From Clostridiales bacterium (GTDB lineage: Bacteria; Bacillota; Clostridia; Oscillospirales; Oscillospiraceae): a stretch of DNA of 64,000 nucleotides. The position numbers and the translations under genes were made by a program. Positions 7,146 to 55,425 of the stretch are shown here, in pieces (position 1 is the stretch's first letter; each line of letters starts with the position of its first letter). The DNA is taken from assembly GCA_020859945.1 (NCBI GenBank), contig JAJBVG010000003.1:1-64000 (forward strand), written 5' to 3'. The notes below the pieces were generated by a model. That model saw only the letters and a list, made by a program, of their open reading frames with translations. It was not told the origin of the DNA and made no database searches.

Positions 7146-7217
7146 GCGGGTGCGCGGGAATACCCCTGCCGTCAAGCGGCGCTGCTTTTTAAGCTCCGCG
7201 TTTTGACTTGCAGCACC

Positions 7218-7267
7218 TGACTAACAGCTAATAGCTAACAGCTCATCAACGGGGCTGATTCAAAGGG
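7218..7267 (+). repeat. AGCTAA-type repeat plus GATTCAAAGGGAT boundary motif
   Basis: CTAACAGCTAATAGCTAACA at 7221-7240 matches the copy in the proS leader. GATTCAAAGGGAT at 7258-7270 also borders the larger repeats at 11345-11475, 32688-32785 and 54420-54515. Confidence 0.55.
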
Positions 7268-7294
7268 ATACCCAATTACAAAAAGGAGGCTCCT

Positions 7295-11194: not shown

Positions 11195-11228
11195 CAATTA
11201 GCAATTTGCAATGAGCAATGTGCAATTA
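11195..11228 (+). repeat. GCAATTTGCAATG-type repeat, direct copy
   Basis: AATTAGCAATTTGCAATGAG with a second GCAATGTGCAATTA lies 3 bp after the preceding stop. It is the same family as 2024-2047 and is inverted relative to the copy at 11586-11617. The 430-bp gap 11193-11622 consists almost entirely of repeat modules. Confidence 0.6.
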
Positions 11229-11344
11229 TGGTTGTCCCTGCGAATCAACTGCTTTTTTAGAGTTAATGGTTCGTGGCTAGAGAGAGTGGTTCTCAGCTGA
11301 AAATTCCACTTCTTTGGAATAAAACTGACATCAGATGATAAGCA

Positions 11345-11475
11345 CCATCCCCCCCTTGCCTCCCCTGAAAGGGGAGGAGGGCCGCCGCCTTTAGGCGGTG
11401 GCGCAGGGAGGGGCAAAGCCCCGGAAGTGCCGCTTGACGGCGGAGGGGTTTCTGGCACGAGGCGGATTCAAAGGG
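11345..11475 (+). repeat. MITE-like element, about 130 bp
   Basis: Contains the core TTGCCTCCCCTGAAAGGGGA, a GCCGCC/GGCGG hairpin, GGAGGGGTTT and a terminal GATTCAAAGGGA. The same modules in the same order recur at 55343-55425 and inverted at 32688-32785 and 54420-54515. The core is itself an inverted repeat (CCCCT/AGGGG). It has no coding capacity. Confidence 0.65.
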
Positions 11476-11505
11476 AAATCAATTTGCCAAACAAACAGAT
11501 AAAGC

Positions 11506-11545: not shown

Positions 11546-11585
11546 TGGACAAAACCGCGCCTTTGGGCAGCGGCCTTTGTCACGT

Positions 11586-11617
11586 TAATTGCACATTGCA
11601 CATTGCTAATTGCACAT
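11586..11617 (-). repeat. GCAATTTGCAATG-type repeat, inverted copy
   Basis: ATTGCACATTGCACATTGC followed by TAATTGCACA is the reverse complement of the 11195 copy and sits just past the stop codon of the minus-strand gene at 11623. Confidence 0.6.
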
Positions 11618-11622
11618 TTTAC

Positions 11623-12387
11623 TTACGTTTTCCGTCCGGCGGGTTCCATCCCCCCGGCCAGCCGGGTCAGCTGCACCGTCAGGCAAAACACCTGGGCCAG
11701 CAGCAGCAGCCGGGTAAAGAGGGCGCCCTCGTCCGCCAGGGCCACCAGAGACAGCATCACCGCCGTCAGCGACCAGAAGAGGGCGGTTTTGCCCTTGCCA
11801 ATGCCCAGGGAGAACCCCGCCAGATAGTACCAGGCGGCGACAGAGGCCACCGCCGCCAGCAGCTGCCAGACAAAGACCTGTACCACCGGGTTGTTGGCGT
11901 TGTTGTGGTAGATTTGGATCAGCCAGAAGCAGCTGCAAAACCCCGGCGCCATGGCCGCCAGCGGTTCCACAGCGCCCCGCCGGGCCAGGAGGCAGACGGA
12001 CACCCCGGAGAGAAACAGCGCCGCTCCCAGCAACACCGGCAGCACCACGTTGATGGCCTGAAAAACCGAGCTGGCCGGGTCAGCCTGCCTGGTCCAGAGG
12101 ACATAAGCGGCTCCGGCGGCCAGATAGAGCGCTCCGCCGGGCAGCAGCTCCGGGCGCGGCCCCGTCCCGAGGGCTCCCGCCCAGTCTCTGGCCGCCGTCC
12201 GCCGGGTCTGAGACAGCAGCAGGAAGCACACCGCCCCGCCCACCGCCAGGGCGATGAGCAGACCTGTGGCCGTGCCTGCCACCGGCAGGCCGTTTTCATC
12301 GAAGCAGGTGGCCAGCTGCCACCGGCGCAGGGCGCAGCCCGCTCCACCCAGGAGCAGGCCGAGACAGGGATAAAGATAATTTCTCAT
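11623..12387 (-). CDS. Hypothetical polytopic membrane protein
   Basis: A 254-residue protein with about seven hydrophobic segments (near residues 5-20, 42-58, 84-98, 112-132, 142-156, 170-190 and 205-240). There is no motif I can tie to a family, and the loops are short and Arg/Gly-rich. The start ATG at 12387 is preceded by GAGGGTG. It has no close neighbour on its strand, so context does not help. It may be a lineage-specific protein of Oscillospiraceae. Confidence 0.7.
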   Translation of the reverse strand: MRNYLYPCLGLLLGGAGCALRRWQLATCFDENGLPVAGTATGLLIALAVGGAVCFLLLSQTRRTAARDWAGALGTGPRPELLPGGALYLAAGAAYVLWTRQADPASSVFQAINVVLPVLLGAALFLSGVSVCLLARRGAVEPLAAMAPGFCSCFWLIQIYHNNANNPVVQVFVWQLLAAVASVAAWYYLAGFSLGIGKGKTALFWSLTAVMLSLVALADEGALFTRLLLLAQVFCLTVQLTRLAGGMEPAGRKT

Positions 12388-12439
12388 AGGCGCACCCTCT
12401 TGTATTTCTGCAATGATACGGTTGGTTCAGTGGTTACTA

Positions 12440-12797
12440 TGATAATGCCTGCTGGATAAACCGCCGTGCGGTTTATTGGCGCGGCGAAGGCCGCGTAATT
12501 TCATAAAACCAGCAGCTGGTTTTATGAAATGCAGTCATTATCACAATGCGTATCTCCGTTGGCACAGCTTGCTGTGTCAACGGAGGGTGCAAGTTTTTTC
12601 ACTTGTCTGCGAAAAAACTTTGCACTTGAACAAAGCTGACCGGCATGAAAGGTCTTGCCTTTCAATGCGAATGGCTTTGTTCAGTACGCATTATTGTACC
12701 GCATTTTCTCGCGATTGTCAGCGGATTGGAGAAAAATTTTTTCAGAGGGGATTTTCCCGCATCGTCCGATTATTGGGACTTTCTCTGAAAAATTCCT
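12440..12797. repeat. Large foldback region: three multi-hairpin domains
   Basis: Domain 1 is closed by 12440-12452 with 12531-12543 and contains perfect hairpins at 12456-12476, 12480-12495 and 12498-12530 (16-base arms, 1-base spacer). Domain 2 is closed by 12544-12552 with 12685-12696 and contains hairpins at 12554-12585, 12587-12625 and 12627-12683, the last with an inner arm. Domain 3 is 12736-12747 with 12783-12793 and two inner hairpins. Arms differ mostly by G-U pairs or single bulges. No ORF fits. It could be a structured RNA, a cruciform-forming mobile element or a replication/recombination site; the sequence does not decide. Confidence 0.75.
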
Positions 12798-12798
12798 C

Positions 12799-12827
12799 TT
12801 GACATTTCTCGAACATCCGTTCATAAT
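12799..12827 (+). promoter_or_regulatory. Promoter of the 85-residue membrane protein gene
   Basis: TTGACA (12799-12804), 17-bp spacer, CATAAT (12822-12827), directly after the foldback region. Confidence 0.65.
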
Positions 12828-32643: not shown

Positions 32644-32687
32644 GGAACAGTTCCCCTTTCGTTGGATTTTTCTCTTTTCTCGGTATC

Positions 32688-32785
32688 CCTTTGATTCAGC
32701 CCTATCATTTATTCCGGCGGAAAACCCCTCCACCATGCTTCGCATGGTCCCCCTCCCCTTTCAGGGGAGGCAAGGGGGATAGTGC
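32688..32785 (-). repeat. MITE-like element, inverted copy
   Basis: Begins TCCCTTTGATTCAG (complement of the GATTCAAAGGGA boundary), then TTCCGGCGGAAAACCCCTCC, CCCCTTTCAGGGGAGGCAAG and a final GGGATAGT. It aligns module by module with 54420-54515. Confidence 0.65.
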
Positions 32786-32809
32786 TTGACATTTGCCCTT
32801 GCTTTTTCT

Positions 32810-32945
32810 AGCCACTTATCACTATCCACTAAAAATGCGGCTGAATGAACGGAATACCAATTTCCTTTCTTTTGCCCGCCGGAGGTCCACCGTCAAGCGG
32901 CACTTCTGGGGCTTCGCCCCTCCCTGCCTGTGGAGGACCCCCGGC
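32810..32945 (-). repeat. Further repeat modules before GH3
   Basis: TAGCCACTTATCACTATCCA (32810-32829) belongs to a TAGTGGCTA family also at 43722-43748 and 55268-55288. GTCAAGCGGCACTTCTGGGG (32893-32912) with the following GCTTCGCCCCTCCC is the inverse of 11411-11440. Together with the element before it, repeats fill 32644-32962. Confidence 0.55.
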
Positions 32946-54311: not shown

Positions 54312-54354
54312 AACAAGGGACAGGGGAGGATTTTTGCGCCTCTCCTGTCCTAAT

Positions 54355-54412
54355 TTAGCTATTAGCCGTTAGCTCTTAGCCGTTAGCTCTTAGCCTGTAA
54401 TTGCTAAATTCC
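54355..54412 (-). repeat. AGCTAA-type repeat, inverted long copy
   Basis: TTAGCCGTTAGCTCTTAGCC followed by further GTTAGCTCTTAGCC units is the reverse complement of the proS-leader copy, extended by one more unit. Confidence 0.6.
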
Positions 54413-54419
54413 GCGGTTA

Positions 54420-54515
54420 TCCCTTTGAATCAGTCGTGTCGGTGATTCCGGCGAAAACCCCTCCGTCGCGGCTTGCGCCGCGCCACCTCCCCTTTCAGGG
54501 GCGGCAAGAGGGGCA
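54420..54515 (-). repeat. MITE-like element, inverted copy
   Basis: ATCCCTTTGAATCAG, TTCCGGCGAAAACCCCTCC, CTCCCCTTTCAGGGGCGGCA and GGGGCAGT in the same order as 32688-32785. With flanking repeat fragments it fills 54312-54663. Confidence 0.65.
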
Positions 54516-54663
54516 GTCGGTTGCCAGATGATAGTTCTTTGTAGGAACCTTGTACTATGTTGGGCAAAGCCACTGACCAAACAGCAAGCACTATCCCAGC
54601 TAACAGCTCATGCCGCAGGCATACCCCTTGTCCCCGCCGCATATCCTCCCATGAGGTGATGCT

Positions 54664-55342: not shown

Positions 55343-55425
55343 GACGACAAGCACTATCCCCTCTTGCCTCCCCTGAAAGGGGAGGAGGGCCGCCGCCTTT
55401 TGGCGGTGGCGGAGGGGTTTCAAAA
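55343..55425 (+). repeat. MITE-like element, direct copy
   Basis: GCACTATCCCC, then CTTGCCTCCCCTGAAAGGGG, GCCGCC/GGCGG and GGAGGGGTTTC follow the order seen at 11345-11475, but the GATTCAAAGGGA end is missing. Confidence 0.6.

Follow-up and report, generated by a model that had tools for sequence, protein, structure and literature searches.

A dispersed, folded MITE-like element of the Oscillospiraceae associated with -10-like heptamers

Introduction

The stretch of DNA analysed here, called the window, comprises 64,000 nucleotides of a Clostridiales bacterium (assembly GCA_020859945.1, contig JAJBVG010000003.1, positions 1 to 64,000). A reading of the sequence only had drawn attention to a foldback region at 12440-12797, which was described as three-domained, free of open reading frames and unlike any familiar element. 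Covarying pairs were named there as support for an RNA and scattered copies as support for a mobile element. The locus raises the question which of these it represents.

Dispersed copies, a 7-bp target duplication, empty sites, a covarying fold and an excess of TATAATA with an orientation bias are established. Positions 12445-12691 are, in our judgement, very likely a non-autonomous MITE-like element that has spread through the Oscillospiraceae, would be inserted in trans at -10-like heptamers and is probably transcribed as a folded leader.

Structure and limits of the window copy

The foldback is genuine. Compared to dinucleotide shuffles, the region 12420-12820 yielded z-scores of -11.15 and -13.03 on the two strands, and none of 100 shuffles equalled it. 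Two closing stems, each enclosing three hairpins, were recovered as described, but the supposed third domain turned out to be the native promoter flank. This inverted repeat (12738-12792) lies outside the element, and its pairs 12738-12747/12783-12792 persist in relatives without the two-domain part (L031, L025 and L033). The folded part of the proposed span thus stands, whereas the true unit is 12445-12691 with its right limit at about 12691. A search of the own genome restricted the repeated portion to about 12437-12694. The absence of an open reading frame holds in the sense that matters, as the arms are spanned by one mechanical frame of 108 aa.

The complete copy is 247 bp long and lies on the plus strand (ATGCCTGCTGGATAAA ... 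GGCTTTGTTCAGTACGCAT). The left terminal inverted repeat (12445-12460, plus strand) has the consensus ATGTCTGCTGAATAAA, and the right one (12673-12691, minus strand) reads ATGCGTACTGAACAAAGCC on that strand. The terminal repeats are imperfect, with ATGYSTRCTGAAYAAA at both ends. All stems and hairpins are given for the plus strand. Domain 1 (12440-12543) holds three hairpins within the closing stem TGATAATG/CATTATCA, to which part of the target duplication contributes. Hairpin 1 (12456-12476) is paired in 98.1% of cells across 63 copies, hairpin 2 (12480-12495) was placed by the fold and the covariation alignment, and hairpin 3 (12498-12530) shows strong covariation and has the arms previously described as perfect, which indeed match at 16 of 16 bases (12498-12513/12515-12530). 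A 7-nt spacer, TATCACA (12539-12545, consensus TGTTACA), separates the CAT of domain 1 from the ATG of domain 2. Domain 2 (12545-12692) is closed by the stem AATGCGTA/TACGCATT, also around three hairpins. The arms of hairpin 4 (12554-12585) are 93% identical over 15 bases (12554-12568/12571-12585), and two-sided changes were found at 14 of 14 pairs of its homologue. It is followed by hairpin 5 (12587-12625) and by hairpin 6 (12627-12683), which has the right terminal repeat as its outer arm. The element does not qualify as an intrinsic terminator, as it has six hairpins and no T run after its end sequence GTACGCAT.

Several other repeats were observed in the surroundings. A separate GC-rich palindromic family (CCCC..GGGG, 'GTGCCGCTTGACGGCGG' motif) occurs in the window at 11340-11480, 32675-32927, 54357-54517 and 55349-55416, with more members in relatives. 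Two further small inserts, whose inverted ends are imperfect (ATCCCTTT..CAGC), are present in L031 at 1257-1500 (G023) and in L025 at 341-529 (G015); both sit in the native palindrome adjoining the site of the window element, and parts of them recur, for example at 7215-7270 and 54354-54390 of the window. Inverted short repeats of the 'ATTGCACATTGC' type were found downstream of the minus-strand gene (11201-11228 and 11580-11640), with similar ones in relatives.

Distribution

The scattered copies expected of a mobile element were found. In the own genome, two other copies lie on contig C12 and one on C37, with a partial copy on C96. Copies in species of the same genus are patchy, lie at different places and occur in both orientations. 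A search of genome contigs with a 20-base end sequence yielded 86 loci, of which the named ones belong mainly to Flavonifractor, Pseudoflavonifractor, Ca. Intestinimonas and Ca. Galloscillospira. With a covariance model of domain 1, complete or partial copies were detected in 42 of 250 genomes of the family and in 30 of 106 genera. By end sequences, about 35 copies were counted in Ca. I. stercorigallinarum (G103). In G126, which belongs to another genus, the number is about 20 or more, and many of these copies are near-identical with identical model scores. No match to the element was obtained in phage collections, plasmid collections or IMG/VR.

Target duplications and empty sites

Perfect 7-bp duplications of the target were found at 46 of 68 distinct complete copies. 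In the window, the left copy of the duplication (TATGATA, 12438-12444) is present once only in the insert-free sites of three related species (G023, G015 and G027); the empty site of G023 reads GGTTCCTATTGTACC, compared to ...TATGATA|ATG...CAT|TATTGTA... at the filled site of the window. Empty sites in related species were found for three loci in total, the other two being L027 (contiguous in four further genomes) and L002 (contiguous in several other genomes).

Full-length copies measure about 247-257 bp and contain no notable open reading frame, while shortened forms of 44-186 bp retain both ends, most of them with matching target duplications. The G + C content of the element (0.474) is below that of the host DNA (0.602), yet the element is not AT-rich. 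Two loci of G126 (L253 on C12 and L254 on C8) are 44-bp palindromes formed by two left element ends (ATGTCTGCTGAATA ... inverted). Transposase and integron genes are absent, as had been stated, but terminal inverted repeats, target duplications, and dispersed copies with empty sites are all present in a short element. The earlier verdict that the region fits no known element is hence too strong, because these are the features of a MITE.

Search for a mobilising enzyme

End-pair searches of the own genome, eight relatives, six copy-rich genomes and G126 revealed no autonomous partner with the same ends, and no locus of PF12762, PF01609 or PF00665 (IS1595, DDE_Tnp_1 and rve) was bounded by element ends. 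The copy-rich genomes have few or no matches to these three transposase families. The genomes are largely drafts, and the family searches covered these three transposase families. An autonomous relative is not defining for a MITE in all usages. Two candidates for gene-bearing versions (L026 and L151) were rejected, as their ends are more than 1 kb apart and enclose unrelated cargo or genes.

The absence or scarcity of the searched DDE families in copy-rich genomes would also fit an element moved by a tyrosine-type site-specific recombinase, possibly encoded by the host or an ICE, with the 7-mer as the overlap region instead of a transposase stagger. The nearly fixed sequence of the 7-bp repeats points the same way, as do tandem copies in which a single 7-mer is common to both neighbours (L117/L153 and L131). 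However, no common core site was seen by eye outside the 7-mer, the target flanks look variable, 6- and 7-bp repeats occur within one genome (G126), and the DDE search spanned three families only. We consider this kind of movement unlikely. A likeness of the joined ends to Xer/dif sites was dropped, as the arms are spaced by 7 rather than by the about 10 that separate the arms of dif.

Target choice and promoters

Of the 68 copies, 35 have duplicated TATAATA, the sequence of a sigma-70 -10 box, which makes up 8.3% of intergenic TANNNTA in the same DNA. The reverse heptamer, TATTATA, accounts for 5 of 68 copies vs 7.6% of intergenic TANNNTA, so that TATAATA lies mostly in the element's own direction (35 vs 5 reversed). 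Upstream TTGACA matches peak at exactly 17 bp (161 matches; 0/5000 permutations). TATAATA sites without an element in the same genomes show a -35 signal equal to that at element sites. The heptamer alone thus marks promoters in these genomes, and its recognition is not separable from recognition of the promoter. Degenerate remnants of the element, too, are located just behind -10 boxes. L002 is an exception, as its insertion follows directly after the -10 box rather than splitting it.

Recent copies carry TATAATA in 11 of 18 cases and old copies in 9 of 22. Retention over time is therefore unsupported as the cause of the bias, young copies being biased as much as old ones. Where the two copies of the duplication differ, the promoter-side copy is nearer to the consensus in 8 cases and the other copy in 5. 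The duplications of G126 are 6 or 7 bp long, nearly all TA..TA and almost never TATAATA (two rows of the underlying listing come from another genome, G152), and several copies there sit behind terminator-like hairpins. Targeting of -10 boxes is consequently not universal, and the claim is confined to the other lineages.

In the window, the element splits a minus-strand promoter, CTGACA-17-TACAAT, ahead of a gene at 11623-12387 (minus strand, 254 aa, without Pfam match), whose 5' leader it would occupy. The right copy of the target duplication (TATTGTA, 12692-12698) reads TACAATA on the minus strand and is the -10 box of this gene; the -35-like hexamer CTGACA lies at 12716-12721 (minus strand), 17 bp upstream of TACAAT. 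From this promoter, the element is entered at its domain-2 side, which is the minority orientation.

Behind same-orientation copies, the next open reading frame on the same strand often begins 20-70 nt past the right end. The downstream genes are mutually unrelated; their products include, by eye, proteins like methionyl-tRNA synthetase, Mur ligases and ribulose-phosphate epimerase. Two observations concern remnants. In three species (L051, L054 and L055), hairpin 1 survives just behind the -10 box of an apparent Rrf2-type regulator gene, which suggests that the remnant may be retained there. At L017 (G026:C16, about 116762 downwards), a remnant lies, by eye, between a TATAAT promoter and a T-box-like leader (GGTGGTACCGTGGAGCAG).

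Such placement could also be expected of a structured cis-regulatory RNA, akin to a riboswitch or an attenuator, that was dispersed along with its genes and whose mobility is incidental. The frequent sense position in 5' leaders, the strong covariation, the slightly better fold of the sense strand and the L017 remnant ahead of its T-box-like leader are in line with such an RNA, but copies occur in both orientations, no Rfam family gave a real match at gathering or relaxed thresholds, and an excess of G-U over A-C changes is not clear. This explanation is largely refuted by precise target duplications at unrelated genes, together with the empty sites, and we regard it as very improbable.

Covariation of the fold

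In 63 aligned copies, the two-domain structure pairs 95.9% of cells. The covarying pairs anticipated for an RNA are present, with two-sided changes at 45 of 88 pairs. Covariation amounts to 0.227, compared to 0.107 after shuffling (0/500), and every shuffle and slid control was lower. Tree parsimony counted 95 double changes from one Watson-Crick pair to another, whereas G-U was reached by 92 single or double changes and A-C by 77. Since the latter two numbers are near equal, covariation does not prove selection on RNA; near equality is expected where pairing is kept at the DNA level or on both strands. Either the pairing is truly constrained or it results from the correction of palindromes, and no clear RNA-strand signature emerges.

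These counts suit an origin of the covariation in DNA-level palindrome upkeep, by quasi-palindrome template switching or by a need for extruded hairpins, with no function as RNA. Either strand could form the pairs with these arms. Against this, the sense orientation prevails at promoters, and in 43 of 63 copies the sense strand has a slight advantage in stability. We give such upkeep a little less than an even chance; it and a function as RNA can both hold.

The motif CAT-7-ATG was found between the domains in 60 of 63 copies. It matches the arrangement of present tandem insertions, from which we infer descent from two units that shared a duplication. The 7-nt spacer is proposed as a fossil target duplication joining the two ancestral units, and the two-domain form probably arose from tandem three-hairpin units with one common target duplication.

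Proposed mechanism

For the MITE-like element, we propose mobilisation in trans by an enzyme that recognises its ends and directs it into TA-rich heptamers, foremost TATAATA, which marks -10 boxes in these GC-rich genomes. Insertion into a core promoter should be lethal to it. As the duplicated target is the -10 box, however, the insertion itself would repair the hit, and the spacing between -35 and -10 would stay correct. The -10 box is probably copied on insertion, so that the element becomes the folded leader of the gene's message and the promoter remains unbroken. The element would then sit between the re-created -10 box and position +1, transcription would start inside it, and the whole fold would form a 5' leader in front of the original leader and the gene. 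With the promoter kept and the fold carried as leader, even essential genes could survive the insertion. The fold may be maintained by making the leader harmless or stable, or by hairpins that are needed or self-corrected at the DNA level. In the window, the promoter hit in this way would be that of the minus-strand gene.

A stronger version, which we put forward as a tentative possibility, is a mobile 5' leader whose insertion machinery is steered in one orientation to active promoters, for instance towards the -10 region melted by RNA polymerase, and which, by duplicating the -10 box, heads housekeeping mRNAs as folded RNA without silencing them.

With a structured leader placed in parallel before numerous genes of numerous species, the element would offer natural replicates for leader effects on expression. 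Target choice and host tolerance are separable by comparison of the Flavonifractor-type lineage with G126, which has no -10 bias.

Comparison with known elements

A literature search, with coverage short of the full literature, revealed no description of such an element. BOX, RUP and SPRITE of Streptococcus pneumoniae are likewise small, dispersed, largely non-coding and highly base-paired repeats of the MITE kind (PMC3049150). RUP targets TA, with IS630-Spn1 as proposed partner (PMC2229807). BOX is modular and occurs in leaders, even adjoining T boxes (PMC3049150), a case that the compound leader of L017 resembles. No sequence link to the present element is apparent, and none of the three is described with -10 targeting or with two three-hairpin domains.

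Correia/NEMIS and ERIC/RU-1 are also MITE-like, with folded transcripts and effects on neighbouring genes (PMC2229807, PMC10969869). In one case, a Correia copy directly follows the mtrCDE promoter (PMC2229807, PMC10969869). Unlike the present element, both families consist, as described, of long stem-loops connected at their ends, and Correia supplies promoters of its own, whereas our element would re-create the -10 box of the host (PMC2229807, PMC10969869). CIR of Caulobacter and Brucella shares the layout of two folded arms with a linker, but each of its arms is one long hairpin, compared to three hairpins under a closing stem in each domain here (PMC2229807). Its two three-hairpin domains and its -10 targets thus set the element apart from the published descriptions of BOX, RUP, Correia, ERIC and CIR (PMC3049150, PMC2229807, PMC10969869).
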